Made by a program: the position numbers and the translations under genes
The notes under the pieces: model-generated
What the model saw: only the letters and a program-made list of their open reading frames with translations
Databases searched by the model: none
Told to the model about the DNA's origin: nothing
Part shown: positions 1-11,354 of the stretch, piece after piece
Numbering within the stretch: position 1 is the stretch's first letter
Layout: each line of letters starts with the position of its first letter
Virus record (IMG/VR): IMGVR_UViG_3300009285_000624
Coordinates: 1 to 20,518 of that record
Source: a virus
Reading direction: 5' to 3' (one strand)
Length of the DNA stretch: 20,518 nt

Positions 1-12
1 GGCAAGGGCGAT

Positions 13-1035
13 TTGAATCGTGTGCTCGACAAGCGAACCAAGGGCGACTGGAGCGACCGCATTGAGCAACTGACCGGGATTGTGGAACAAGCCTTGCTCG
101 AAGTCGACCCCCCCGTCGTGTTGGCCGACATGCCAGATCCGGGCGGCGACGAGTGGTTAATATCACCGTTATTGGAGGCCCACGAGCACACCGTTGTGTT
201 CGCGGAAGGCGGCTCTGGCAAGAGCATTTTCGCTCTCGCAATCGGAGTCTCGGTCGCAACGAAAGTCCCCATGGTCTCCGGTATGTTTCCGGCCACCCAA
301 GTCAGCGTTCTTTACCTCGATTGGGAAACACGCTGGCAAACACACCGGGCGCGTCTGTCACGGCTTGCTGCTGGCCGCGCGCTCGCCATGCCCAGCAACT
401 TCTTCTATCAGCGCATGGCCGGTACCTTCATGGATGTCGTGGAATCCGTGAAGTTATTCGTTCGCACCAAGGGCATCGGGCTTGTAATCGTGGATTCGAT
501 TGGCATGGCCTGCGGCGGCAGCCTCAACGACGACTTCACGGCGATCAGCTACAACAACGCCGTCCGAGCACTGGAACTGGCAGGCGCCACGGTTCTCTCG
601 CTGGCCCACGTCCCAAAAGACAGGCTGAATCAACTCAGCCCGATCGGCTCGATCTACTTCACGAACGCGCCTCGCGCGGTCTGGAAGATGGTTGGCACCC
701 GGCAACCCGGCGAGAACACCACCGACATCGTGATCTCTAACCCGAAGGCCAACAACGCGGCCTTGGCCAAAGAGATCGGCTTGCGCCTGGAGTGGACCGA
801 GGATGCAGTCCGGTTCTACCGGCAGGACCCGCGCGCCGTTCCCGAGTTGGCGGTCCACATGAACAACGTCGACCGTATCGCCTACGAACTTCGTAACGGG
901 ATGCGAACAGCGGAACAAGTCGCTGACGAGACCGGCATCAAGGCCTCAGTCGTGAAGGCGACCCTCTACCGCTGGAAGGATCGTCGGTTTGTTCAACGCG
1001 GCAACGAGTGGGGGAACCTGAAGCCCGTTGATTAG
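13..1035 (+). CDS. RepA-like AAA ATPase / replicative helicase family
   Basis: A hexameric RecA-fold ATPase of the RepA/AAA_25 type, which unwinds DNA or loads the replication machinery in plasmids and phages. A Walker A motif (AEGGSGKS, residues 64-71) is followed by YLDWE (101-105, usual second acidic motif of this family) and a Walker B strand LVIVDS ending at Asp161. The last ~45 residues (RTAEQVADETGIKASVV...) look like a winged helix, as in many phage RepA-like proteins. The 340 aa are about full length. The start is uncertain: TTG at 13 has an AAGGG a few bases upstream, but the frame is open to base 1, so the gene may begin outside the window. It precedes a repeat-rich AT-rich gap, which fits a replication role. 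Family assignment is firm; the exact role is inferred. Confidence 0.85.
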   Translation: MNRVLDKRTKGDWSDRIEQLTGIVEQALLEVDPPVVLADMPDPGGDEWLISPLLEAHEHTVVFAEGGSGKSIFALAIGVSVATKVPMVSGMFPATQVSVLYLDWETRWQTHRARLSRLAAGRALAMPSNFFYQRMAGTFMDVVESVKLFVRTKGIGLVIVDSIGMACGGSLNDDFTAISYNNAVRALELAGATVLSLAHVPKDRLNQLSPIGSIYFTNAPRAVWKMVGTRQPGENTTDIVISNPKANNAALAKEIGLRLEWTEDAVRFYRQDPRAVPELAVHMNNVDRIAYELRNGMRTAEQVADETGIKASVVKATLYRWKDRRFVQRGNEWGNLKPVD

Positions 1036-1037
1036 CG

Positions 1038-1119
1038 CTAATAACAGTCCTATTAACACTCGCGATGATGTCAATAACAGGACTCCCCCTCTAAGAGAGG
1101 GGAGCCCAGGTGTTATTAG
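1038..1119. repeat. Cluster of CTAATAACA-like 9-mers (candidate operator or iterons)
   Basis: The 120-bp gap between the RepA-like gene and the small-gene operon is visibly AT-richer than its surroundings. It holds CTAATAACA at 1038-1046, CTATTAACA at 1050-1058 (one mismatch), TCAATAACA at 1071-1079 (shares AATAACA) and the exact inverse TGTTATTAG at 1111-1119. The first three are in the same orientation, 12 and 21 bp apart. Repeats of this kind next to a replication ATPase and upstream of a long operon suggest binding sites for a repressor or an initiator. No convincing -35/-10 pair could be fixed. Confidence 0.45.
1083..1104 (+). terminator. Hairpin after the RepA-like gene, no U-tract
   Basis: CTCCCC-TCT pairs with AGAGGGGAG around an AAG loop, giving a 9-bp stem with one bulged C. 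It lies 48 bp after the stop of the RepA-like gene. The sequence after the stem is not T-rich, so it is a poor intrinsic terminator; it could stabilise an RNA end or act as a partial terminator between the two transcription units. Confidence 0.35.
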
Positions 1120-1155
1120 ACTCTCGAATCCATTCAGAAATCCGGAGGTCTCACG

Positions 1156-1458
1156 ATGATCTACAAACCGCTGGCGCTCACTGGCGGGGAGCTTTTCGAG
1201 AACATCGGACTTGCGATGTGTTGTCCGATATGTGGCGGCGATTACGTTGGGACTAAGGCGGAACCGGCGCACAGCGAGGACTGGCTCGGGCGTGGGGGCG
1301 CCCTGGTCATTCCGATGGATTGCGAGTCTGGTCACGACTTCGAGATCGGCATCGGGTTTCACAAAGGCCAGTCGTGGATGTTCACACGGCACATCGAGAT
1401 CGCGGAACCAATTGAGGCCCACCGAGACGCGAACGGTGGAGGGGGCTGGCACCGATGA
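1156..1458 (+). CDS. Small zinc-ribbon-like hypothetical protein
   Basis: First gene of the long + strand operon, 100 aa. An excellent ribosome binding site, GGAGGT (1144-1149), sits 6 bases before the ATG and fixes the start. Residues 22-26 (CCPICGG region) give a CxxC pair; further Cys56 and several His (79, 99) could complete a metal site, but no named domain is recognised. It overlaps the next gene by ATGA. Function unknown; a small phage protein specific to this kind of early operon. Confidence 0.75.
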   Translation: MIYKPLALTGGELFENIGLAMCCPICGGDYVGTKAEPAHSEDWLGRGGALVIPMDCESGHDFEIGIGFHKGQSWMFTRHIEIAEPIEAHRDANGGGGWHR

Positions 1459-1685
1459 TTATCCGCTTCGAGCGCGTCACGGTTGCGAAACCCCAGATCG
1501 ACTTCAACAGCCGCCGCCGCAAGGGGTCCGCGGGCCAGGGATCGGTGAAGCTCCTCGTCACCTTCCAGGCCATCTCGCACGCCGCGGACCTGCAACGGCT
1601 CGCTGAGGGCGGGGAGTACGCGGTCAGCTTTACACCCATGAGCGAGATCATTCGCGACGCGGAGGCACAGAAAGGACAGGCTTAG
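1455..1685 (+). CDS. Hypothetical protein, 76 aa
   Basis: Begins on the ATGA overlap with the preceding gene and ends immediately before the next ATG (TAGATG), so it is translationally coupled on both sides. The N-terminal third is basic (SRRRKGS), followed by an alternating hydrophobic stretch (SVKLLVTFQAI) that suggests beta strands. No family recognised. The coupling is the main evidence that it is real. Confidence 0.7.
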   Translation: MIIRFERVTVAKPQIDFNSRRRKGSAGQGSVKLLVTFQAISHAADLQRLAEGGEYAVSFTPMSEIIRDAEAQKGQA

Positions 1686-2093
1686 ATGGTCACGGTCCAG
1701 AAATCGGTCACCCTTGACGTATCTGAACATGGCTGTGGGCACTTCGTGGCTCTGCCTCCCGATGTGTTGGAGAAGCGGCGACAGGACGGCGAAACGTTCT
1801 GGTGCCCTTTCGGTCATCCGCTCTCATTTAACCAGACCGAAAATGCTCGTCTAAAGGCCGAGTTATACGCCGTAAAGCAGGACCGCCTGAGAGCCGTCGA
1901 AGCCGCCGGGAAGGCTCGCCGCGAACTGGATGGCGCACTGGTCGAGATCGGCAAGCTGCACAAGCGCGTTCAGGGCGGCGTCTGTCCGTACTGCAAACGC
2001 ACGTTCCGGCAGATGCAGCGACACATGGCGAACAAGCACCCCGAACGCCCCGGAGTCGTGCGGGACGCCGAGGCGCAGGGGAAGGCGACGTGA
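1686..2093 (+). CDS. Coiled-coil protein with C2H2-type zinc finger
   Basis: A 135-aa protein in three parts. The N-terminal region has Cys17, His19, Cys40 and His44 (CGH ... WCPFGHP), a pattern like small zinc-binding modules of phage proteins. Residues about 50-95 are charged and heptad-like (ENARLKAELYAVKQD...), predicted as a coiled coil. The C-terminal part carries CPYC (100-103) followed by His113 and His118, a Cx2Cx9Hx4H finger. Such a layout suggests a DNA- or protein-binding dimer, possibly regulatory. It starts right after the stop of the upstream gene. Confidence 0.75.
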   Translation: MVTVQKSVTLDVSEHGCGHFVALPPDVLEKRRQDGETFWCPFGHPLSFNQTENARLKAELYAVKQDRLRAVEAAGKARRELDGALVEIGKLHKRVQGGVCPYCKRTFRQMQRHMANKHPERPGVVRDAEAQGKAT

Positions 2094-2257
2094 CCGCCGA
2101 CACGCTCGCCCTGCTCCTCGACTACGCCGACGCCATGGAATCCCTGCTGCGCATCCTGCACGAGAAACGCATACCGCCAGCCGCGGTGACGTGCGCGAAC
2201 GGTTACCGGGAGGCGCGCGACGCGTATGACCGAGAGCACGGGGAGAAGGCCGAATGA
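2090..2257 (+). CDS. Small hypothetical protein, 55 aa
   Basis: A short gene starting with GTG in a GTGA overlap with the upstream stop and ending in an ATGA overlap with the next gene. GGGGAAGG lies just upstream as a ribosome binding site. The product is mostly helical by inspection (LALLLDYADAMESLL, then a charged tail REARDAYDREHGEKAE). No family recognised. Both boundaries match the coupling seen throughout the operon and the reading fills an otherwise empty gap of 160 bp. Confidence 0.65.
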   Translation: MTADTLALLLDYADAMESLLRILHEKRIPPAAVTCANGYREARDAYDREHGEKAE

Positions 2258-2505
2258 CGAGCCGGACTTACCGCTGCCATTGCCCCGACTGTGCCTGTAC
2301 GGAGGCGTTGTCCAACGTGCGGATGTACGGCTACTGCTCGTGGTGCTCGACTTGGCGGGCCTTGAGGCTCGACGGCTCCATGCCGACGCATATGTATTGC
2401 GTGGGCGTCCGATTCGATGGCGGCTGGTCCGTGCCAGCCCCTTCGCGCATCGCCGCCCTGTGCCAGGACTGTCGACAAGAACGTCACGCGGCGGTGACGG
2501 CATGA
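2254..2505 (+). CDS. Cysteine-rich zinc-ribbon protein, 83 aa
   Basis: Starts in an ATGA overlap. Contains nine cysteines in pairs: C8/C10/C13/C15, C28/C31 (YCSWC), C49 and C70/C73 (LCQDC), typical of a protein with one or two zinc ribbons. It is preferred over a slightly longer overlapping reading starting at 2226 because of this pattern and the exact coupling. Function unknown; a DNA-, RNA- or protein-binding role is possible. Confidence 0.7.
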   Translation: MTSRTYRCHCPDCACTEALSNVRMYGYCSWCSTWRALRLDGSMPTHMYCVGVRFDGGWSVPAPSRIAALCQDCRQERHAAVTA

Positions 2506-2522
2506 AAGCGTTACCGATATGA
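2502..2522 (+). other. Six-codon mini-ORF bridging a gene gap
   Basis: ATG AAA GCG TTA CCG ATA TGA begins on the ATGA of the preceding stop and ends inside the GAGGAGG ribosome binding site of the next gene. It could hand ribosomes across the gap. This is a structural observation; expression is not shown. Confidence 0.3.
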
Positions 2523-2532
2523 GGAGGTTCGC

Positions 2533-2805
2533 ATGGCAGTGAAACAGGTCGATACCGCAACCGGAGAGCTGATCGAGATCCCCGCCCGCGACCGCTATGA
2601 GCCGCCGCCAGTACGCTCGCCAGAGTGGTCAGCGGAACTTCGCAGAGCCGCCGAGGAGTGCGAAATCCTCCTTTGGGGCATGGCGCAAGCCGGCCGATTT
2701 AAGGACGCCGACGAGCTGCAGGTTGTCGCGAAGGCTTACAAGCACGCGATGGATCTGCGGAAGTTGGCCGATGAAAAGCTGGCGCAGACAGGCTACGGAA
2801 TCTGA
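2533..2805 (+). CDS. Hypothetical protein, 90 aa
   Basis: The strong site GAGGAGG (2521-2527) five bases before the ATG fixes the start. The N-terminus (KQVDTATGELIEI) resembles short lead sequences of many phage early proteins; residues 30-85 look like two helices with charged faces (ELRRAAEECEILLWGMAQAGRF, KAYKHAMDLRKLADEKL). No family recognised. Its stop shares one base with the start of the HNH gene (TGATG). Confidence 0.7.
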   Translation: MAVKQVDTATGELIEIPARDRYEPPPVRSPEWSAELRRAAEECEILLWGMAQAGRFKDADELQVVAKAYKHAMDLRKLADEKLAQTGYGI

Positions 2806-3140
2806 TGCGCCGCACGCCACTGCGCCGCGTCACCGGCCTCGCGCGCTCGACGACCCGCATACGTCCGCGGTCACGGAAGATGGCCGCGCTCTACCGCGAC
2901 GTCCGCGTGCCCCTGGTGCGCCGCCTGCTGGCCGAGAGGTCCGCGTGCGAGGCGCGGTTCTCGCTCATCTGCACCGGCCGGAGCACGGCCTGCCACGAGA
3001 AGTTGACGCGTGCGAGAGGGGGTTCGATCACCGACGAGACGAACATCATTTGTGTGTGCCATCCCTGCCACGACGCGATCCACCGGAACATCGCGGAGGC
3101 CACGCGCCGCGGGTTTCTGCGAGGACGCTCCCATGCTTGA
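2805..3140 (+). CDS. HNH-like endonuclease, 111 aa
   Basis: The C-terminal half has the HNH/beta-beta-alpha-metal layout: CHEK with the first His, a glycine-containing turn (RGGS), ETN with the central Asn, then ICVCHPCHDAIH with paired cysteines and the final His. The N-terminal ~50 residues are very basic (MRRTPLRRVTGLARS...), fitting DNA contact. Small HNH proteins in phages can nick or cut DNA in packaging or recombination; here it sits within an early operon with a RusA resolvase, not beside a terminase in this window. Target unknown. Confidence 0.7.
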   Translation: MRRTPLRRVTGLARSTTRIRPRSRKMAALYRDVRVPLVRRLLAERSACEARFSLICTGRSTACHEKLTRARGGSITDETNIICVCHPCHDAIHRNIAEATRRGFLRGRSHA

Positions 3141-3351
3141 CCCCCGCTGGTACGCCACCGACTACCCCTACGCGGGCGGCTGGCTCATCACCGTGGGCGC
3201 GCCGTGGGAGCCGGGGCACCCCGAACGAATACTCGCCACGGCCCGCAACGGTGAGATCGCCAGACGAATCGTCGACGACCACAACGCGGTGCTGCCCGCC
3301 ACGGTGGGCGCGGCGCAGCTGAGCCTGCTAGCGCGCGGAGGGCAGTCGTGA
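3133..3351 (+). CDS. Hypothetical protein, 72 aa
   Basis: Starts at the ATG that overlaps the HNH stop by 8 bases and ends in a GTGA overlap with the next gene. The product has WYATDYPYAGGW, then an acidic/basic helix (EIARRIVDDHNAVLP). This resembles the small phage proteins in which a short beta hairpin is followed by a helix ending in HN, but no named family can be given. A longer reading upstream would run through the HNH gene and was not chosen. Confidence 0.6.
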   Translation: MLDPRWYATDYPYAGGWLITVGAPWEPGHPERILATARNGEIARRIVDDHNAVLPATVGAAQLSLLARGGQS

Positions 3352-3581
3352 CAACCGTGGAGCGGGAAGCCGTGGCGTGGTGCAAGGGCTGCGAGATGTA
3401 CCTGCCCGCCGAGGACGCGGGTACGAAGTGTCCCGGCGATGACTGCGGGCGAAAGCTACGGCGACGCGTGGGCCGCATCTGCCGCCAATGCGAGTTGCAC
3501 CCGGTGTTTTTGGTCGACATCGAGGGCAACGACGGCTACGACCGCCATGTGAGAGAGGCGCACGGAGGGAGCGAGTCGTGA
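3348..3581 (+). CDS. Multi-zinc-finger small protein, 77 aa
   Basis: GTG start in a GTGA overlap. Three metal-binding patterns are visible: C12/C15 (WCKGC), C28/C33, and a C2H2-like unit C45-x2-C48 ... H67-x4-H72. The first two pairs may form one zinc ribbon (CxxC ... CPGDDCG). The C-terminal finger ends like a classical helix (YDRHVREAH). Probably binds nucleic acid or a protein partner; role unknown. Confidence 0.7.
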   Translation: MTTVEREAVAWCKGCEMYLPAEDAGTKCPGDDCGRKLRRRVGRICRQCELHPVFLVDIEGNDGYDRHVREAHGGSES

Positions 3582-4147
3582 CCGATTCCCGTGTGCGATT
3601 GGCGACGACGGCTGATCTCGCGGCCATTGATTCCCTTCGGCGAGCGGAACAAGAGGCGGTCGGGTTCATTCCCATGAGCCGGTACGAGAGCGAGATCGAG
3701 GCGCGGCGGCGGACGCTATTCGTCATGCGCGAGAACAACGATCCCGTGGGGTTTCTGTTTTGGACTCGTGGCTGGCCGATTGGGACGGTGCAACAAATCG
3801 TGATCCGCGACGACGCTCGACGCCAGGAGCGCGGTGCGGCCTTGATCGCTACCGCCGCCGAACAGATGGGGGCCGAAGGCCGGAAGGGGATCACGTTGCG
3901 TTGTCGGGCCAGCTTGGGCGCCGTTGATTTCTGGCGGGCGCTCGGATTCACCGTCGTACGCCCAGAGCAAGGCGGTCGACGTGGCCCGCTGTGGCGTTTC
4001 TACCGCCCGCTACAGCCATCATTGTTGGAGCCTGCCGATTTCGTGCGCGGCTTGGGCATCGCAGGTGGTCCACGGTCATCGTTTCGCACGACGCGGAGGG
4101 CGCAACGCGACATGCTTGCGCACGGGGCGCAGGAGGGGACGCGGTGA
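3578..4147 (+). CDS. GNAT-family N-acetyltransferase
   Basis: GTG start in a GTGA overlap, with GGAGGGA upstream. The 189-aa product opens with the GNAT strand-helix (VRLATTADLAAIDSLRRAEQ), has a beta-4 strand (QQIVIRDDAR), the acetyl-CoA loop RQERGAALI and the terminal FWRALGFTVV motif. Its substrate cannot be read from sequence; phage GNATs are known to acetylate proteins, toxins or modified bases. About 45 residues after the GNAT core are basic and without recognised domain. It is directly coupled to the deoxyribosyltransferase-like gene downstream. Confidence 0.85.
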   Translation: MTDSRVRLATTADLAAIDSLRRAEQEAVGFIPMSRYESEIEARRRTLFVMRENNDPVGFLFWTRGWPIGTVQQIVIRDDARRQERGAALIATAAEQMGAEGRKGITLRCRASLGAVDFWRALGFTVVRPEQGGRRGPLWRFYRPLQPSLLEPADFVRGLGIAGGPRSSFRTTRRAQRDMLAHGAQEGTR

Positions 4148-4659
4148 GCGACAAGCGGAATGTGTACGTGGCGTCAAGTTGGCGCAATAAGTATCAGCCG
4201 GACGTCGTCCAGTGGCTACGTGGTCTCGATCTGGAGGTGTACGACTTCCGCAATCCGCGGCCGGGTGACGATGGCTTCCGTTGGTCCGAGATCGACCCTG
4301 ACTGGCAGAACTGGACGCCGGAGCAGTACGTCGCCGCGTTGAGTCATCCGATAGCGGAGGCAGGCTTCAAGTCGGACATGGACGCGCTCAAATGCGCCGA
4401 CGCGACGCTGCTCATTCTTCCGTCCGGTCGTAGCGCGCATCTTGAACTTGGCTATGCCTGCGGCATGGGGCAAACGACGGCCATCTACATCCCGGAAAAG
4501 CAAGAGCCGGAATTGATGGCGAAGATGGTCGGCCAGATTCTCACGACATCGGCGGAGGTCATCAAGTGGGGCCAAATGATCGCCTCGGCCTGCTGCCTGA
4601 GCGAGGGCGGCCACGATTGGACTTGTCGCCTCAATGATCACAAGGTCGTCGATGCCTAG
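4144..4659 (+). CDS. Nucleoside 2-deoxyribosyltransferase-like protein
   Basis: A 171-aa Rossmann-like protein with VYVASSWRN at residues 8-16, a middle helix of the type that precedes the active site (DMDALKCADATLLIL) and the loop SGRSAHLELGYACGMGQ containing the likely catalytic Glu101. The order matches the nucleoside 2-deoxyribosyltransferase family (PF05014), which moves deoxyribose between bases or hydrolyses nucleotides, and is structurally related to TIR-like domains. GTG start in a GTGA overlap with the GNAT gene; overlaps the next gene by 8 bases. Activity could be nucleotide salvage, base modification or counter-defence; only the fold is supported. Confidence 0.8.
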   Translation: MSDKRNVYVASSWRNKYQPDVVQWLRGLDLEVYDFRNPRPGDDGFRWSEIDPDWQNWTPEQYVAALSHPIAEAGFKSDMDALKCADATLLILPSGRSAHLELGYACGMGQTTAIYIPEKQEPELMAKMVGQILTTSAEVIKWGQMIASACCLSEGGHDWTCRLNDHKVVDA

Positions 4660-4900
4660 GCCACCCGCGGATCCCCGTGCGTTGAGCTGGCCGCTGGCAA
4701 ACGCCGCGGCGAGAGGGCTGGGGCACAGGCTCGGCCCGACGCGGGAGTTCGGCGTGATGAGGAGCGCTACCTGTACCCGATGCGGGCTGTACGCGGTCGA
4801 GAACGTAAGCGACGGCGCCGGCGTGACGGGGCCGGCGGTATTTGAGCCATGTGTACCTACGGACGCGTTCCACAAGCGCAGTCTGGGGAGACTTCCATGA
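4652..4900 (+). CDS. Hypothetical protein, 82 aa
   Basis: ATG overlapping the upstream stop (ATGCCTAG). The N-terminus is proline- and alanine-rich (MPRPPADPRALSW); a CxxC pair at residues 41-44 (CTRCG) and a later Cys suggest one zinc site. It ends in an ATGA overlap with the resolvase gene. No family recognised. Confidence 0.6.
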   Translation: MPRPPADPRALSWPLANAAARGLGHRLGPTREFGVMRSATCTRCGLYAVENVSDGAGVTGPAVFEPCVPTDAFHKRSLGRLP

Positions 4901-5352
4901 AGCTCACGTTCTGCGTTCTCGGCGTCGCCCATGCGTGGTCCCGTACGCGCCTCGCCTTCGACGGTCTCGGCCGCGTGCGCCCCTTCAACACGGCCCCGAT
5001 GACCGACTACGGCCATCAGGTAGCCACGGCCGCGGCGCTGGCCGCAAAGGCCCAGGGATGGCGCATGGTGCCCGCGGGCGTGCCCGTGACGCTCACCGTG
5101 ACCGCGTACCTGCCGATACCGGCGAGCACGTCGAAGCGCAAGGCTCTCGCGATGATCGGAAAGCCTCACACGCAAAAGCCCGATCTGGAAAACGTCGCGT
5201 ACAAGCTGATCGCGGACGTGCTGCAGAAACCGGATCGTGATCGCCCACGCGCCGGGGTGATCTTCGACGACGGCCAGATCAGCGACGGCGAGATACGCAA
5301 GCGATGGTGCGAGGCGGAGGATGCGAGGGTGGAGATTGAGGTGACAGCATGA
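4897..5352 (+). CDS. rusA: RusA-family Holliday junction resolvase
   Basis: Cuts four-way DNA junctions made during phage replication and recombination, preparing concatemers for packaging. The diagnostic KPDLEN (94-99), K103/D107 and the FDDGQI motif (123-128) match the RusA active site, where aspartates bind the metal. Length (151 aa) is a little above the usual 120-140. The start MKLTF at the ATGA overlap is chosen; an ATG 48 bases upstream would overlap the previous gene needlessly. It sits in the early operon with an HNH nuclease and downstream of a RepA-like ATPase. Confidence 0.88.
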   Translation: MKLTFCVLGVAHAWSRTRLAFDGLGRVRPFNTAPMTDYGHQVATAAALAAKAQGWRMVPAGVPVTLTVTAYLPIPASTSKRKALAMIGKPHTQKPDLENVAYKLIADVLQKPDRDRPRAGVIFDDGQISDGEIRKRWCEAEDARVEIEVTA

Positions 5353-5840
5353 GCCGATTCACGGAGTACGACGACTGGGACGACAACGCGCAGTGGGCGT
5401 ATATACGGTGGCAAGGCCGGTGCGCCGCGGTTCTACGCGGCCGTCCTGCGCAGAGGTATTTCCGCGAACTCATCGAAGCACTCGACGCCATGCCCGTGAA
5501 GCGACTGATCGCGAGCGATTTGTGCCGTGTTGAATTCAACCCCGACGACAGTGAACGGTTCGAGGTCTGCGCAGTCGGCCAAATGATCGTCCATCGTCGC
5601 GTCGCCGCTGGGGAGGACCGGGAAACCGTACTGCGCAGCATGGCGACCTTGGAAGGTGAAGGCTCGGACGAGACGGCGCGACAGGCGCAGGCGCACCTTG
5701 GCATGACGTATACCCTGGGCTGGCTGATCGCCGAAGCGAATGACGAAACCTTCTCGGAATCGTCAACGACGCCGGAACAGCGATGGGAACGAATGCGAGC
5801 ATGGGCCACGGAACACATTAGGGCTGAGGTGACCGCATGA
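5349..5840 (+). CDS. Hypothetical protein, 163 aa
   Basis: ATGA overlaps at both ends. The product is acidic with an aromatic-rich N-terminus (DDWDDNAQWAYIRW), a central region containing RFEVCAVGQMIVHRR, and a C-terminal helix with TPEQRWERMRAWATEH. No domain recognised. Its placement after the RusA gene is typical of phage early genes but does not define a job. Confidence 0.7.
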   Translation: MSRFTEYDDWDDNAQWAYIRWQGRCAAVLRGRPAQRYFRELIEALDAMPVKRLIASDLCRVEFNPDDSERFEVCAVGQMIVHRRVAAGEDRETVLRSMATLEGEGSDETARQAQAHLGMTYTLGWLIAEANDETFSESSTTPEQRWERMRAWATEHIRAEVTA

Positions 5841-6064
5841 GGGAACCGCGTGTCGAATCTGTCGAGCACTACCGAGTGCCGTCGCAGTACAAGCGGTGTC
5901 GCATGAAGATCGGATTCCGCTTGGTGTGCCATGAACCACCCGCGGCCGACATGCGCCGATCGAACGGGTGGTGGGCGTATTGCGCCGAACACTGGCGCTG
6001 TTACAACCGAGAAGTCCGCGACGGTCAAGTGTGGTGGCTCGGCTTTTCGAAGGTGACCGCATGA
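5837..6064 (+). CDS. Cys/His/Trp-rich small protein, 75 aa
   Basis: ATGA overlaps at both ends. Cys21, Cys31-His32, Cys49-x2-His52 and Cys55 could form one zinc site; the region NGWWAYCAEHWRCY is unusually rich in aromatics. This is a small single-domain protein with unknown partner. Confidence 0.65.
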   Translation: MREPRVESVEHYRVPSQYKRCRMKIGFRLVCHEPPAADMRRSNGWWAYCAEHWRCYNREVRDGQVWWLGFSKVTA

Positions 6065-6279
6065 CGACAGAGAAGGCTCGCCGACGGACTCGACAAAAGG
6101 TGACGTTGCCCCAAGCTGTTGCGGTGATGCTGGACGCATATGACGCGTACGCCATCGAGTTGATGGCCCATGTCGTGGCACATGGCCCCGTGTTTCCCGA
6201 GGGCAGCGATCTGGCAAAAAGCCACCTCGCGCTCTCGTTCGCCGTCGATGCTGTTCAGAGGGAGGTCGAACGCCGATGA
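6061..6279 (+). CDS. Helical hypothetical protein, 72 aa
   Basis: Begins ATGACGACA in an ATGA overlap and ends in another. A basic N-terminus (KARRRTRQKVTL) precedes two amphipathic helices (PQAVAVMLDAYDAYAIELMA and SHLALSFAVDAVQREVE). Size and charge would suit a small DNA-binding or adaptor protein, but no family is recognised. Confidence 0.65.
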   Translation: MTTEKARRRTRQKVTLPQAVAVMLDAYDAYAIELMAHVVAHGPVFPEGSDLAKSHLALSFAVDAVQREVERR

Positions 6280-6662
6280 CTGAGACCACGAAGGCCCCCA
6301 GCAAGGAAGCGATTGCAGCGGTGCGTGCAGTCCGGTGCCCGCATGAGCCTGTGAATTGCGATTATTGTGTCGCCGCCGCGCTGGAGGCGTTCGCCGCGGA
6401 CATGAACGACGGCGACCGCACGTTCAAGCGGTTGGCGCAGGCGGAGCGTGAGCGCGACGTCCTCCGCGCCCGCAACGTGGCGCTGGTGGAGGCACTGACG
6501 ACGTTTTTAACAGTGCACCCCAGCAAGGATGATGGCCCGCCCGGTAGCGAGGGCGTGCTCATCAGTGTTCCCGGCGAGACAACAGCAGCCAATCCATACC
6601 GTGACGAGTTCGCTGTGTTACGCGCTGCGCTGGCCGCGGACGCCAAGGCTGGGGACGTATGA
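6276..6662 (+). CDS. Hypothetical protein with CxH...CxxC and coiled coil, 128 aa
   Basis: ATGA overlaps at both ends. Near the N-terminus CPHEPVNCDYC (residues 21-31) is a compact zinc-binding pattern. Residues about 49-75 (FKRLAQAERERDVLRARN) form a likely coiled coil. This short zinc-plus-coil layout recurs in small phage proteins and resembles that of the protein at 1686-2093. Function unknown. Confidence 0.7.
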   Translation: MTETTKAPSKEAIAAVRAVRCPHEPVNCDYCVAAALEAFAADMNDGDRTFKRLAQAERERDVLRARNVALVEALTTFLTVHPSKDDGPPGSEGVLISVPGETTAANPYRDEFAVLRAALAADAKAGDV

Positions 6663-6919
6663 ACAGCGAATGGACACGGCGCAGGCGCATCGCCATTTGG
6701 TTCTGGAATGGTCTGCTAGTCGGCGCTATCTCCGGTGGGATGGTGGCGCTCCCATATATCCCCTGGTGGATCAAGGCGTTCGTCGGGTTCACCTTACCGT
6801 GTTGGTTCATAGCTTGGCGCAGGTACATTCTCAACGCCATCGACGACTGCGGATGCGGCAGCCGAGTAATCGGGCACTCTTGCATACGGGAGAACGTCAA
6901 GGCCGGGGAGGACCGCTAG
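6659..6919 (+). CDS. Small membrane protein, 86 aa, two segments
   Basis: ATGA overlap with the upstream gene. After a basic start (TRRRRIAIWFW) there are two hydrophobic segments, about residues 11-31 (LLVGAISGGMVALPYI) and 35-52 (AFVGFTLPCWFIAW), then a soluble tail with CGCG and a further Cys. By the positive-inside rule both ends would face the cytoplasm. It sits in the early operon, so it is not an obvious lysis protein; superinfection exclusion is one possibility, not shown. Confidence 0.65.
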   Translation: MNSEWTRRRRIAIWFWNGLLVGAISGGMVALPYIPWWIKAFVGFTLPCWFIAWRRYILNAIDDCGCGSRVIGHSCIRENVKAGEDR

Positions 6920-7081
6920 ATGACCAACGCTGACCGCCTCTGCCGCGCCACCGTGCAGATTCGCTTCTCGCCGACCAAGACTGTCGAAGTTCGATGCTCA
7001 TGCGATGCCGGACATATCGGTGCGCATTACGGACGCAGTGTCACCGAGCATATGTCGGTAAAGTGGGAGACCCCCGAATGA
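6920..7081 (+). CDS. Small Cys/His protein, 53 aa
   Basis: Very short gene. The ATG follows the upstream TAG with no gap, GGGGAGG (6905-6911) is a strong ribosome binding site, and the stop overlaps the next ATG as ATGA. The product has Cys8, Cys26, Cys28, His32 and His36 (CSCDAGHIGAH), a possible zinc site. No family recognised, but the boundaries and site make it a good gene call. Confidence 0.65.
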   Translation: MTNADRLCRATVQIRFSPTKTVEVRCSCDAGHIGAHYGRSVTEHMSVKWETPE

Positions 7082-7641
7082 CCACCGCCGACCTGCTCGC
7101 TGAGGCCCGCGCACTGATCGCCGTGGCGACGAAGCCGTGGCGATATGTGGGCGAACGGTTCCCGATTCAAAGTCCCCAAGGTGACCGAATCAAGATGCAC
7201 GTCGTCGCCGTTGACCACCCAAACGGTTCGTGGGAGTCGATCTACTGCAACACCAAGGAGCAAGCGGAGACCGTCGCCCGTTCCCGCACGCTGCTCCCGC
7301 AACTGGCCGACGCACTCGAAGCCGCGGAGCCTGTCGAGTGCGGTCTATGTGGCGGGCCCTACATGGTCCGCAATCCTCACCCCGACGCGGGCAAACCAGC
7401 CGAGCTGTTGAACGTCGGTGCCGTCTACGTTTGCGTGCCATGCGGCCAAAAGGCTCTCCACCGCTGTAGTGAACGGGTGGGCAAAGCCGAGGCGAGGCTG
7501 GCGAAGATGCGGGACGAGTTTGCAGCGACGCTGCGCGTTGTGCGCCAAGGGCTAGACCCAGCGGACCCCACATACAAGATCGCGACCGAAGCCATCGACA
7601 GGCTGGAAGCCCCCGCACGCCCGATGGAGCCGGGGACGTGA
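7078..7641 (+). CDS. Hypothetical protein with central zinc ribbon, 187 aa
   Basis: Start at ATGACC in an ATGA overlap. Residues 1-80 include a beta-rich part and the helix TLLPQLADALEAAE; CGLC (88-91) and CVPC (119-122) are the two knuckles of a four-Cys ribbon. A C-terminal coil (CSERVGKAEARLAKMRDEF) and a phage-type ending (YKIATEAIDRLE) follow. Similar three-part early proteins occur in many actinobacterial phages as far as memory goes, but no function is attached to them. Confidence 0.7.
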   Translation: MTTADLLAEARALIAVATKPWRYVGERFPIQSPQGDRIKMHVVAVDHPNGSWESIYCNTKEQAETVARSRTLLPQLADALEAAEPVECGLCGGPYMVRNPHPDAGKPAELLNVGAVYVCVPCGQKALHRCSERVGKAEARLAKMRDEFAATLRVVRQGLDPADPTYKIATEAIDRLEAPARPMEPGT

Positions 7642-8039
7642 AGGACCGAGCGATTCTCGTGGGCGTAGGTATGCCCGCCGCCCTGCTCCTTGACGAGTTC
7701 GGGAGTCAAGTGTGGAGTGCGTTCGGTGAGCCGCCCTATCTCGTGGGGTCCGCCTTACACGGCAAGGACTGGCGAGACGTGGATGTGCGCTTGATTCTGC
7801 CGGACGCCGATTACGAGACGTGGGGACTGGGCGACCCGAAACGCCCGCAGCAAAACGCCAAGTGGATATCGCTGACGCTCGCTTATTCTATGCTCGGCAA
7901 GGCGATGACCGGACTACCAATCGACTTTCAGATACAGCAACAGACCCACGCCAACAATCTATTCGACGGCCCACGCTCGGCCCTCGGAATCGTCCCACTA
8001 CGAATGGCGGAGAGCGCACGCCCGATGGAGGATGCATGA
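7638..8039 (+). CDS. Minimal nucleotidyltransferase-like protein
   Basis: GTG start in a GTGA overlap. The 133-aa product shows the polymerase-beta type nucleotidyltransferase signature: GS at 37-38 (VGSALHG), the metal-binding DVD at 47-49 (RDVDVRL) and a third aspartate at 96 (LPIDFQI) on a later strand. Members of this superfamily transfer NMP to proteins, RNA or small molecules, and the MNT type acts in toxin-antitoxin pairs. No HEPN partner is visible nearby. Target unknown. Confidence 0.7.
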   Translation: MKDRAILVGVGMPAALLLDEFGSQVWSAFGEPPYLVGSALHGKDWRDVDVRLILPDADYETWGLGDPKRPQQNAKWISLTLAYSMLGKAMTGLPIDFQIQQQTHANNLFDGPRSALGIVPLRMAESARPMEDA

Positions 8040-8284
8040 CCACTGGTGGAATAGGCGGTAAGTGTCGGTGTGACGAGTCCACGGCCTTTCCGGGGCCGGG
8101 GCAGCATCTGCCGGGGTGTCCGTTCTACAGCCCGATGGTCTATGTTCAAGGCGCGCCGCTTCGCTCGAAGTGCGTCTGCGGCCACGTACAGGGCCACCAC
8201 TACGGAACGGCGATGGGGGACGGGCACTGTACGTGGCTAAGCTGCGGCTGCCCGAAGTTCATCGAGGAGACCGCCCATGCCTGA
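8036..8284 (+). CDS. Cys/His-rich protein with CxCGHxxxxH repeat-like zinc motif
   Basis: ATGA overlap. After C10/C12 and C28, the region KCVCGHVQGHHY followed by HC, SCGCPKF matches a small zinc-binding motif (CxCGHxxxxH ... CxCxxF) seen in many short actinobacterial and phage proteins. The role of that family is not known to me. It overlaps the next gene by 8 bases. Confidence 0.7.
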   Translation: MTTGGIGGKCRCDESTAFPGPGQHLPGCPFYSPMVYVQGAPLRSKCVCGHVQGHHYGTAMGDGHCTWLSCGCPKFIEETAHA

Positions 8285-8612
8285 ACCCACGCCCACGGTG
8301 ATCGAATCAGACCGCAAGATCGCCGAAGAGTGGTATCGCTGTCCGTCGGGCACGACGCACTCGCCAGCGTGCAGCCCAACGCATGCTCTGGAACTGGATC
8401 GCATGGCCGCCGAGATCGCCGCGGCTCGTGAGGCGTGGGGCGCGCCACGCGAGGCGGTCGCCGCGCTCGTGGACCTTGTCGCCGCCGCGATTCGCGACCA
8501 TGAGGACAGGGCGGGCGAGTGTCCGATCACGGCGCCGTCCGACCCCGACGAGCCATGCCTGTACGACAGGTTGCGCGCCGCGCTGGAGCGCGTGAAGGGA
8601 GTCGGGGCGTGA
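8277..8612 (+). CDS. Helical hypothetical protein, 111 aa
   Basis: Start ATGCCTGA overlaps the upstream stop by 8 bases; its own stop is in a GTGA overlap. C22 and C32 with His28 and His36 (YRCPSG...HSPACSPTH) may bind a metal; the rest is alanine-rich helix (MAAEIAAAREAW, AVAALVDLVAAAIRDHEDRAGE). No family recognised. Confidence 0.65.
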   Translation: MPEPTPTVIESDRKIAEEWYRCPSGTTHSPACSPTHALELDRMAAEIAAAREAWGAPREAVAALVDLVAAAIRDHEDRAGECPITAPSDPDEPCLYDRLRAALERVKGVGA

Positions 8613-8785
8613 ATTGCCGTAGATGTCCCGTTGTTCGTTTCCACCATCATCGAACGGGGATGTGGCGCTACTACGACTGGATTGCCCGCTTGTTCCGTCG
8701 AGATGGGCTGGACCCTATCGACTGGCTCTTTGCGACGGTCACGGTACTCATAGTGCTTTTCTGGTTTATGCTGGCGTCTGCATGA
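8609..8785 (+). CDS. Tail-anchored small membrane protein, 58 aa
   Basis: GTG start in a GTGA overlap. CRRC at residues 3-6 and HHH follow at the N-terminus; a basic middle (RLFRR) precedes one hydrophobic segment, about residues 39-57 (WLFATVTVLIVLFWFML). Expected orientation is N-terminus in the cytoplasm with the helix at the C-terminal end. Function unknown. Confidence 0.6.
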   Translation: MNCRRCPVVRFHHHRTGMWRYYDWIARLFRRDGLDPIDWLFATVTVLIVLFWFMLASA

Positions 8786-8799
8786 GCTTCCTCACATGA
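8782..8799 (+). other. Five-codon mini-ORF bridging a gene gap
   Basis: ATG AGC TTC CTC ACA TGA starts on the ATGA at the end of the preceding gene and stops on the ATGA at the start of the next. No Shine-Dalgarno sequence precedes the next gene, so re-initiation through this mini-ORF is a plausible way to start it. Confidence 0.3.
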
Positions 8800-9080
8800 A
8801 AGAACAGGTCTGGCTTGTGCCGCGGGGCGCGCTCTCGTGGAAGATCGCGTGCTATTGCACATCGCTCACGGCGGCATCCTTAGAGGCCGCAGGTTACGGC
8901 GCGCTGGAACTGACGATCAAAGAGCACACCGTCGACCTGCCAATTAGCTTGTTCAATGGCTTCGCCACGGAGTCGCTTGACTGTGGCAAGGTCGAAGCGC
9001 AGAGGCTCGCGAGCGGCGGGTGCAGGGTCTTCTTCACTCCATACGTTTCGCCGGGCGAGGCACTCTACCAAACCGCCTGA
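8796..9080 (+). CDS. Hypothetical protein, 94 aa (last gene of + operon)
   Basis: The last + strand gene before the convergent junction. No clear ribosome binding site precedes the ATG, but a mini-ORF ending on it could provide re-initiation. The product mixes strands and helices (WLVPRGALSWKIACYC, VDLPISLFNGFATESLDCG, FFTPYVSPGEALY). No family recognised. Confidence 0.6.
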   Translation: MKEQVWLVPRGALSWKIACYCTSLTAASLEAAGYGALELTIKEHTVDLPISLFNGFATESLDCGKVEAQRLASGGCRVFFTPYVSPGEALYQTA

Positions 9081-9099: not shown

Positions 9100-9975
9100 C
9101 TAGCCCCGTCTCCAGAACGCCGCCTTCGCAATCACCTTAAGCGCCTTCCTGCACGCCCTCGCTAGCCACGCCCTGACCCTCCCGATGACGGCCAGGAGCG
9201 CCGCCCAGGTCCCAGCCACCGCGGCCGCGGCTTTGCGCGCGCACGTCCTGTGACCGCCTTCGGCCAGCCAGGCAAGGAACAGGCCGACCTCGAAGAGGAC
9301 GATGATCGGCACGGCGACGAGTGTTTGATTGACGATATCGAACGTCGGCGTGATGATCGTGCTCAAGAAGAACGCCGCCACTGGGACGTACTTCTGAAAC
9401 TTTCGGAACCGCCTGACCGAAACGATCCCGAACCGAGCGAGCAAGAACATCGCCAGCGGTATCTGGAAGATCACCCCGAGCCAGAAGATCATCGCCGTGA
9501 CTAGCTTCATGTACTCCGTGATCGTGATGACCGGAACGGCGATGCCGTCGCCGAAGTGCAGGAGGAACCTGAGCCCAGCAGGCAGCATCACGAAGTACGC
9601 GAACGCCGCCCCGCCCAGGTAGCACACGAGCATCGCAGGCAAGAAGATGACGGCAAACCGTCGTTGCCGGCGATTGAGCCACGGACTCGCCAACTGGTAG
9701 ACGCTCAACGTCAATACGGGGAACGCCGTGACAACGCCGCCCTTTACCGCCAGGCCGATTGTGGCGCTCATCATCTCGGTGGGGGCGGTGAAAATGGGAA
9801 GGCCCCCGTAGGGGGAGAGGCTTCCCCCCGCGGGAGCAAACAGCAATCCGAAGATTGCTTCGCGGTAGTACCAGGTGAAACCGGCGCCGAGGCCGAAGGC
9901 GATGAAGATCCAGATGAGCCGGATTCTTACCCTTCGGCCGAACCGCTGGACCGCGCCCCTGCTCGGGGCGCTCAT
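9100..9975 (-). CDS. tatC: TatC-like membrane translocase component
   Basis: A 291-aa homologue of TatC, the six-helix core of the twin-arginine translocase. The helices lie near residues 18-38, 68-95, 108-133, 155-182, 198-212 and 216-236. Strong family matches include GGAAFAYFVMLPAGLRFL, IFQIPLAMFLLARFGI, LSTIITP and LFEVGLFLAWL. Compared with E. coli TatC, Pro48, Asp211 and Glu227 have equivalents (P48, D213, E229), but the HLxELR motif with Glu15 is absent, the Phe94 loop is shortened, Glu103 is Gln104 and Glu170 is Gln171. The last ~50 residues are an Ala/Arg-rich extension. ATG at 9975 is 4 bases past the preceding stop; an in-frame upstream ATG would overlap that gene. Last gene of the late operon. 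Fold certain; classical Tat activity doubtful. Confidence 0.9.
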   Translation of the reverse strand: MSAPSRGAVQRFGRRVRIRLIWIFIAFGLGAGFTWYYREAIFGLLFAPAGGSLSPYGGLPIFTAPTEMMSATIGLAVKGGVVTAFPVLTLSVYQLASPWLNRRQRRFAVIFLPAMLVCYLGGAAFAYFVMLPAGLRFLLHFGDGIAVPVITITEYMKLVTAMIFWLGVIFQIPLAMFLLARFGIVSVRRFRKFQKYVPVAAFFLSTIITPTFDIVNQTLVAVPIIVLFEVGLFLAWLAEGGHRTCARKAAAAVAGTWAALLAVIGRVRAWLARACRKALKVIAKAAFWRRG

Positions 9976-9979
9976 GCTT

Positions 9980-10102
9980 TTAGGCTTTCGGAGTCGGCGT
10001 CGATGCCTTGGGCCCGCTGAGAGCCTTCTTGATCGCGGCGCCACCGATCACGAGCGCTAACGTGCCCACGGCCACGCCGACTAGCAGTACCCATTCGTTC
10101 AT
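9980..10102 (-). CDS. 40-aa single-span membrane peptide, TatA-like
   Basis: A 40-aa reading frame with AAGGGA eight bases before its ATG. It has MNEW, a short hydrophobic segment (residues 4-20), a Gly-Gly bend, a short basic helix (AAIKKALSG) and a polar Pro/Lys tail. That order, including the unusually short membrane segment and an acidic residue at position 3, is the layout of TatA (whose E. coli form has a polar Gln8), though the FGxxKL hinge motif is missing. It lies four bases from the TatC-like gene, so co-translation is likely. It could equally be a small holin or pinholin. Confidence 0.6.
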   Translation of the reverse strand: MNEWVLLVGVAVGTLALVIGGAAIKKALSGPKASTPTPKA

Positions 10103-10123: not shown

Positions 10124-10396
10124 CTATGGCCGCTCACCCTTGTGAGGGGCTCCCTTTGTGAGGGCATCTAACCGGACTCCCGCATCTGCGTTGCCCTGCC
10201 TCAGCCGTCGGGCCAACTTGGTGACGCTGTGCATCCCCGACCCTGCCGTGACAGCCGTCCACGCAACGGCGACGACACCGGCCCGTGCGGTGTTGACCAC
10301 GCTCCCGGCTATACCGGCGAAAAGGTAGTCGAAGATCTTGCCGATGATGAACGCCGCCACCATACTCGCCAGCGTGGGGCCGATCAGCCAGCCCAT
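10124..10396 (-). CDS. Membrane protein with two segments, holin-like
   Basis: 90 aa with two hydrophobic segments, about residues 3-31 (PTLASMVAAFIIGKIFDYLF) and 33-53 (VVNTARAGVVAVAWTAVTAG), and a basic C-terminal tail (KLARRLRQG). Its ATG overlaps the stop of the preceding gene (TGATG). Size and topology fit class II holins, and the position late in the tail operon is right for one, but no endolysin lies nearby. Together with the next two genes it forms a membrane cassette. Confidence 0.65.
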   Translation of the reverse strand: MGWLIGPTLASMVAAFIIGKIFDYLFAGIAGSVVNTARAGVVAVAWTAVTAGSGMHSVTKLARRLRQGNADAGVRLDALTKGAPHKGERP

Positions 10397-10662
10397 CAGA
10401 TCTTCTTCCCTAGGCTGCCACTGAGGGCGCCGAAGAAGTCATCGATCACGGACCTGCTCTGCCCGATAGAGGTCGCGAGCACCATTTGTAGCGGACTCAG
10501 GCCCGACTTCCTGGCACGAGCGAAGAGCTGCTCGATCTCTGCTGTGAACTGCTCGGCGGTTAGAGGCACATCCTCTGGCTTCACCACCACCGCGGAGGCT
10601 AGAGGGGCGGGCAGCGTTTCCCCCTTGGCCTCCTCGACCTTCTTCGGCGCTTCATCCGCCAT
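10396..10662 (-). CDS. Hypothetical protein, 88 aa
   Basis: Start MADEAPKK is chosen because GAGGAG lies six bases upstream; a longer in-frame reading to 10896 would run through the S74 fibre gene. A charged N-terminus is followed by PLTAEQFTAEIEQLFARARK and a C-terminal stretch (SVIDDFFGALSGSLG). Mostly helical. No family recognised; it precedes the membrane cassette and could be a partner of it. Confidence 0.65.
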   Translation of the reverse strand: MADEAPKKVEEAKGETLPAPLASAVVVKPEDVPLTAEQFTAEIEQLFARARKSGLSPLQMVLATSIGQSRSVIDDFFGALSGSLGKKI

Positions 10663-10712: not shown

Positions 10713-11354
10713 TTATCCATTCGCCGCCTCCAACTCGACTACGCGGCCGGCAAGGTGGTTCACGGCGGCGATCAGCGATGGGACCAGAAGTTGGTACTCG
10801 ATCTGCCAGGGCTGCGGATGCTCTTTGCAGGCTCGTGCGGCCAAGCAATCGGCGCAACTCTGACCGCCCTGTGCGTTGACCGCCCATCGCGCCCATTTGA
10901 TTGCGTCCTGGGCGATCAGACTTACATACCGACCTCGCAGAGCCTTCCCGTTAGGGTTGCGGTCGGCTGGATCGTCCCACAGGTGACTGACAACGTGAGC
11001 CTTGGCGAGCAGCGCGAGCGCCTCTTTCCCCGAGACGTCCTCAATCGCGCGTTTGATTCTCCGATCTGAGGTCGTGTTGATCGAGGCGTTGCCGATATAC
11101 AGAACTGTTGAGGCCGCACCTTGCGATGCGTCGTCAATCTCGTTATTGCCTGAATCGGCGCCGATGCGGACGCCAGCTTGAAACACCACGTTGACGTCGT
11201 GCGCCGTGTAGGAAAGCGTCGCCGAACCTGCGCCCGCCGCGCCCGTGTGGGTATGCGTGCCGAGGAACGTCAGGTCATCACTGATATAGGTGTTGAAGTT
11301 CGCGGCTGTCAGGACCTCGCCGGACGCCCATACACGCGGAGTGCCCCAAGCCAT
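10713..11354 (-). CDS. Tail fibre/tip protein with C-terminal S74 chaperone domain
   Basis: 213 aa. The C-terminal part has the Peptidase_S74 entry motif SDRRIK (96-101), equivalent to the Ser-Lys pair of the endosialidase chaperone domain; Ser96 and Lys101 keep the spacing of 5. These domains help fibres trimerise and then cut themselves off. A later part has EYQLLVPSLIAAVNHLAGRV, the usual C-terminal trimer helix, with a small Cys insertion (CADCLAARACKEH). Residues 1-95 are short and begin like phage fibre bases (GEVLTAANFNTYI). Released chaperone would leave a mature part of only about 95 residues. Confidence 0.82.
   Translation of the reverse strand: MAWGTPRVWASGEVLTAANFNTYISDDLTFLGTHTHTGAAGAGSATLSYTAHDVNVVFQAGVRIGADSGNNEIDDASQGAASTVLYIGNASINTTSDRRIKRAIEDVSGKEALALLAKAHVVSHLWDDPADRNPNGKALRGRYVSLIAQDAIKWARWAVNAQGGQSCADCLAARACKEHPQPWQIEYQLLVPSLIAAVNHLAGRVVELEAANG

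Follow-up and report, generated by a model that had tools for sequence, protein, structure and literature searches.

A clade of phages encodes a TatC homologue with a replaced signal-peptide site in a conserved four-gene cassette

A TatC-like gene ends a phage tail and fibre operon

The window analysed here is the whole of the IMG/VR virus record IMGVR_UViG_3300009285_000624, a stretch of 20,518 bases. The plus strand from position 1 to 9080 encodes a helicase-like ATPase, an HNH endonuclease, a deoxyribosyltransferase and RusA, and the minus strand, from the right end of the window down to position 9100, encodes a major tail protein, a tape measure protein, a protein of 537 amino acids and a fibre with an S74 domain. 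The nucleoside deoxyribosyltransferase-like gene (3991-4659, plus strand) matches PHROG 12607 (E=1.4e-51) and has its best relatives in mycobacteriophages. No tRNA or Rfam elements were found in the window. The tail-fibre gene (10713..11354, minus strand), identified by its S74 chaperone domain (PF13884, E=9e-5) and by PHROG tail-fibre matches, lies directly upstream of a cassette of four genes, and the TatC-like gene stands last in this cassette.

The TatC-like gene (9100..9975, minus strand) encodes 291 amino acids from an ATG at 9975 to a stop at 9100-9102; alignment with relatives favoured this start over an upstream GTG at 10044. The protein matches positions 6-208 of the 208 in PF00902 (E=3.3e-45, 154.9 bits vs 25.1), and it scores 140.1 bits against TIGR00945, the NCBIfam equivalog model for TatC, for which the cut-off is 132.7. 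PHROG 36238, whose function is listed as unknown, matches the TatC of the window and of two related phages, L018 and L022 (E 8e-23 to 2e-18). An AlphaFold2 model was poor (pLDDT 44.7, pTM 0.25), and homology to the solved TatCs was established by sequence alone. These data agree with the sequence-only reading, which had placed a complete TatC last in a phage late operon: the gene is a complete minus-strand reading frame of the TatC family and the last gene of the tail and fibre operon.

The phage TatC-like proteins form one clade

Scans of IMG/VR yielded nine relatives with best segments 44-63% identical, and all form one clade with the window protein. Searches with a single protein or with phage sequences only returned no or few relatives, and alignments mixing phage with cellular TatCs reached the clade. 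An alignment of phage and bacterial proteins recovered L018 and L019, an alignment of phage and Chloroflexota proteins recovered L230, L231, L232, L234, L236 and the fragment L237, and L022 was recovered through the two-helix gene upstream, its TatC being recognised afterwards. With the window, full-length phage TatCs thus number nine (L237 being the fragment), and a final scan gave the same nine contigs and none that were new. The nine full-length proteins are monophyletic (SH-aLRT 100), and the alignment and tree of the PF00902 family that the sequence-only reading had proposed as a check placed the phage copies in one clade, grouped with Chloroflexota TatCs.

Among GTDB contigs there was no close relative of the phage TatC, the best cellular segments being 31-37% identical, and a profile search of approximately 1,500 further genomes found no phage-like copy. 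The best cellular protein scored 216 bits with the phage profile, compared to 265 bits for the lowest full-length phage protein. Comparison of L018 with L019 gave a dN/dS of 0.12, indicating purifying selection on the phage TatC. Ten IMG/VR contigs that encode the 537-aa protein of the window contained no TatC in the sequence examined. Matches in INPHARED were either unannotated fragments or host contigs with the tatABC of Salmonella and Acinetobacter, and were not counted as phage TatCs; in AGRM01000003.1, AFYI01000004.1 and CAKLQH/CAKLQF (Acinetobacter phage MD-2021a) the matching TatC belongs to a host tatABC operon, which shows that these "phage" records include bacterial sequence.

Residues of the signal-peptide site are replaced in the phage proteins

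In the 2026 structure of E. coli TatBC with a substrate, the signal peptide contacts H12, E15, F94, Y100 and E103, and the pocket for the consensus phenylalanine is lined by L9, H12, L13 and F94 (PMC13323110). In the window protein the helix 1 part of this site (9931..9942, minus strand) reads F12, G13 and R15 at the positions of H12, L13 and E15, so that the HLxELR motif has become FGRRVR with R17 and R19 kept; the helix 2-3 part (9664..9693, minus strand) reads L95, N101 and Q104 at the positions of F94, Y100 and E103. The helix 1 residues H12, L13 and E15 are absent from all nine full-length phage proteins, in which H12 is replaced by Phe or Leu, L13 by Gly or Ala and E15 invariably by Arg. 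F94 is likewise replaced by Leu or Ile in 9/9. The loss of HLxELR with its E15 had been claimed for the window and extends to the whole clade. The change of E103 to Gln104 was also claimed correctly for the window, but across the clade this position is variable (Q,Q,Q,Q,K,E,H,V,Y), and one member, L231, has Glu there. Y100 is not diagnostic, because Thr is frequent at this position in Chloroflexota TatCs.

Cellular TatCs were compared column by column with the phage proteins. Glu or Asp occupies the E15 position in 198 of 201 cellular rows, and Phe or Tyr the F94 position in all 201. Across 170 cellular TatCs, residue class is conserved in 45 columns. Six of these (H12, L13, E15, K73, F94 and E103) are lost in every one of four phage proteins, and five of the six are signal contacts (Fisher p=5e-6, a value to be read as descriptive, since the tests treat sequences as independent). 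When all nine phage proteins were set against 191 cellular ones, H12, L13, E15 and F94 were kept in 0/9 and K73 and E103 in 1/9, and the 47 conserved columns outside the signal site were kept by a mean of 8.1 of the nine phages. The lost conserved columns coincide almost exactly with the signal-peptide contacts of the E. coli TatBC structure. Because the clade is monophyletic, the change may have happened once.

These data bear on whether the gene is an ordinary captured TatC, either drifting without function or still serving twin-arginine substrates with tolerated substitutions. Such a gene would fit the acceptance of the window protein by TIGR00945, and tatC genes are common in cells; however, this explanation is extremely unlikely in view of the low dN/dS, the identical losses in nine diverged members and the finding that substitutions of E103 and F94 inactivate E. 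coli TatC (PMC3712464). Moreover, neither E15R nor F94L/I occurs in any of the 191 cellular TatCs sampled, and Tat-competent cellular proteins with the same substitutions had been named as what would speak against a repurposed TatC. Judged by its sequence, the window protein is a PF00902 homologue that fails the defining residues of a twin-arginine receptor. Since the TIGR00945 equivalog model accepts it despite the missing residues, automatic annotation will mislabel the clade, and a plain TatC equivalog label on the window gene hides its altered nature.

Two further details of the sequence-only reading fared differently. The F94 loop is not shortened, since Salmonella TatC has one of equal length, and the change of E170 to Gln171, although present, is uninformative, as E170Q occurs in 38 of 201 cellular rows and in 3 of 10 phage rows.

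The docking site for TatA and TatB is retained

In the E. coli structure, T208 and Q215 hold residue 8 of TatB or TatA (PMC13323110). The corresponding docking site of the window protein (9325..9351, minus strand) retains T209 (T208), D213 (D211) and Q217 (Q215). Across the full-length phage proteins, T208 and the P-D loop residues P209 and D211 are each present in 9/9 and Q215 in 8/9, the exception being L236. The residues P48, D211 and E227, reported earlier as kept, are indeed found in the window protein as P48, D213 and E229.

The window protein ends in a basic extension of 54 amino acids with a net charge of +11 (9103..9264, minus strand), recognised by comparison with the clade and with cellular TatCs. 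An extension is present in all phage copies (35-89 aa, net +7 to +16), and the maximum among the 170 cellular TatCs is +8. The extensions of L231, L234 and L237 have an extra hydrophobic stretch that ends near WDG or WNG and is possibly a seventh helix.

A Chloroflexota TatC such as L214 is approximately 42% identical to the window protein, belongs to the same fold family and has the ITPTFDxxNQ motif and P48, T208, D211, Q215 and E227 in common with it; however, the cellular copies keep HLxELR, F94 and E103, which the phage copies do not, and the phage copies have the basic C-terminal extension. The column-by-column comparison strongly supports the earlier proposal that a selective loss of the signal site on an intact core marks a repurposed TatC.

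A protein that keeps its docking residues and has lost its signal site could join host TatA, TatB and TatC and block or redirect them, for takeover of the host or superinfection exclusion, and TatC, as an obligate oligomer, can be poisoned by variant subunits (PMC5102672). In E. coli, however, the substitutions that make TatC dominant negative map to the periplasmic cap and leave the protein able to bind substrate, and the signal-binding loop is not over-represented among such alleles (PMC5102672), which makes a poison of host Tat less likely. Three small genes conserved beside the phage TatC would be superfluous for a simple poison, and the late operon position also argues against one. Blocking of the host machinery, which the sequence-only reading had suggested, is thus weakened by the E. 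coli genetics and by the extra genes, and we consider interference unlikely.

Three small genes accompany the TatC-like gene

Upstream of the TatC-like gene, the same three genes occur in the same order in 9/9 full-length phages, namely a helical protein, a two-helix basic membrane protein and a one-helix microprotein. In L230, approximately 0.9 kb of other sequence lies between the two membrane genes.

The microprotein of the window (9980..10102, minus strand) has 40 amino acids (MNEWVLLVGVAVG...) and one helix with a Glu at its start. It occupies the same position in all nine phages and is 35-55 aa long; the Glu that opens the helix is invariant, most members have a hinge rich in glycine, and selection is purifying (dN/dS 0.12 for L018/L019). 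The microprotein of L234 begins with MFGMGPQELLII, the TatA start, and scores 14.3 bits against a TatA/TatB profile; the profile scores of the other microproteins were too low for a claim of homology, and Pfam gave no matches. A helix preceded by an acidic N-terminus is a general feature of proteins with N-out topology. Homology to TatA is suggestive, and this for L234 only.

An HMM recognises the two-helix basic membrane protein (10124..10396, minus strand; 90 aa) in eight of the nine phages, and L236 has a counterpart by position; the gene is under purifying selection. The protein was tried as a TatA/TatB candidate and rejected (hhalign probability 3%). The gene is a single reading frame in seven members, and a -1 shift splits it in L022 (10001-10272) and L236 (7539-7786). 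At both shift sites an in-frame X_XXY_YYZ heptamer (T_TTT_TTC and T_TTT_TTA) lies between the helices; in a search for frameshift stimulators, RNA folds downstream of these heptamers were not significant. The split may reflect programmed frameshifting or an assembly error.

The small helical protein (10396..10662, minus strand; 88 aa) has a stop codon that overlaps the start of the two-helix gene, and an upstream counterpart is found in all nine phages (79-117 aa), the assignment in L232 being mainly positional. It is acidic in seven members and net positive in L232 and L234; recognition by charge swapping was considered as its general role and is weakened by these two members.

Other genes were observed near the cassette. 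L018 (10995-11558) and L019 (10878-11423) encode a VTT/DedA-type membrane protein (PF09335) convergent with TatC, and L231 has a further same-strand ORF downstream of the cassette. In L236 (8968-9591), a lipoprotein-like ORF directly follows TatC; it has a lipobox-like SCTTP and the look of a long coiled coil, and could be spanin-like. On the opposite strand near the cassette, L030 (10887-11759, in G003) carries a PAPS-reductase-like gene (PHROG 424, E=1.2e-45).

The window and L018 have the cassette, the helicase and RusA in common and no detectable structural gene, and the cassette thus behaves as a unit. Because it ends the tail and fibre module, its products could be part of the particle, serve its assembly or aid passage through an S-layer and membrane. 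Tailed virions rarely contain polytopic membrane proteins, and this rarity, together with the lack of a detectable shared structural gene, makes a virion or entry role very unlikely.

The retained T208/Q215 groove and the Glu of the microprotein fit each other, and the two proteins may form a complex. Minimal TatAC systems offer a parallel, in that the gene ahead of the phage TatC encodes a single-helix protein whose helix opens with Glu, and in that the residue-8 groove is kept; the phage cassette differs from them in its microprotein of 35-55 aa with little amphipathic helix and only a suggestion of TatA homology, in its two extra conserved genes and in having no twin-arginine site. The cassette likely encodes a dedicated Tat-like complex that is blind to twin arginines.

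Such a complex could be a translocon for one phage protein with a different signal, for example a protein that attacks the S-layer or blocks a receptor, and this signal could be recognised by FGRRVR, a basic segment, or brought in by the helical protein, which is acidic in most members. Export of this kind would account for the kept TatA/TatB groove and scaffold and for the acidic helical protein in 7/9 phages; the fixation of Arg at E15, rather than drift, suggests a new contact, and the lipoprotein-like ORF that follows TatC in L236 is in keeping with export. However, a cargo gene common to the phages was not found, L232 and L234 have helical proteins of net positive charge, and the microprotein lacks the full amphipathic helix that is thought to matter for TatA. 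Dedicated export is accordingly somewhat unlikely.

Affinity with Chloroflexota and the probable host

In a careful tree with four phage TatCs, the clade grouped with Chloroflexota (100/99) and near one class of that phylum (93/89). Scores with the phage TatC profile peak in one Chloroflexota class, at up to 216 bits, and reach 167 in the class that includes an Anaerolinea genome, 133 in Pseudomonadota and 165 in the phylum of Thermodesulfatator. Searches for mraY gave matches over the cut-off in 72/177 genomes of the best-scoring class, compared to 93/100 in the Anaerolinea class, and in 0/15 of the best TatC-matching genomes listed (Fisher p=0.001 vs the class), to which false absences from MAG incompleteness could have contributed. 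SAR202 bacteria have been described as having an S-layer and lacking peptidoglycan (PMC11994032), and the pattern of mraY and TatC fits the Dehalococcoidia including SAR202. Judging from this one captured gene, the host is probably a wall-less Chloroflexota bacterium with an S-layer.

Discussion

We propose that a TatC, probably from a Chloroflexota host with an S-layer and no peptidoglycan, was captured once by a phage, and that it lost the signal-peptide pocket, with E15 becoming Arg, while keeping the groove for the TatA/TatB helix. The altered protein would recruit the small membrane proteins of the cassette with no need of a substrate signal, and the ungated assembly, presumably expressed late, would open or weaken the cytoplasmic membrane as infection ends. 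The cassette would then serve egress or lysis in phages that infect hosts for which an endolysin is unnecessary.

The position of the cassette after the tail and fibre genes is consistent with this proposal, as lysis genes often occupy that place. Among the matches listed for the window and seven relatives there was no lytic family: Pfam showed none in G001-G003, where some large proteins fell outside the scan and diverged endolysins may escape Pfam, or among the 25 listed of 39 families from 115 proteins of G1529, G1530, G1532 and G1533, and the PHROGs of the window included none. The cassette resembles holin-endolysin-spanin cassettes in following the tail fibre, in its short two-helix basic membrane protein and in its overlapping small genes; unlike them, it has no recognised endolysin or spanin family and includes a polytopic protein derived from TatC. 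Since an endolysin would be superfluous in a host that lacks peptidoglycan, late membrane opening is favoured, with dedicated export second. Egress as the job of the Tat-like complex is a tentative assignment, and the full proposal, in which an ungated TatA/TatC-like complex is the egress machine of S-layer Chloroflexota phages that have neither an endolysin nor a known holin, is possible but doubtful.

In the literature searched, mostly without subscription journals and without bioRxiv preprints, phage TatC was mentioned once, as an automatic label in a figure legend for a circular marine virus (PMC10564846, Fig. 6 legend). That genome is phage-like and of 35-40 kb and likewise has a PF00902 gene, for which the label is given with no analysis of residues or partners. 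This literature appears to contain no description of the erased signal pocket, of the partner genes or of the link to Chloroflexota. With respect to the sequence-only reading, the repurposed TatC and its residue losses stand, the loop shortening does not, blocking of host Tat is weakened and E170Q says little; the cassette, the clade and the Chloroflexota link are additions.

With the twin-arginine pocket erased and the residues of the Tat core kept, the phage proteins amount to an apparent natural "clean experiment". A central question of the Tat mechanism, whether assembly and action of a TatC scaffold require a signal peptide, thereby becomes open to test, and the TatA-like partner of 35-55 aa offers a minimal subject for structural work. 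The cassette may also show how phages exit bacteria that have no peptidoglycan.
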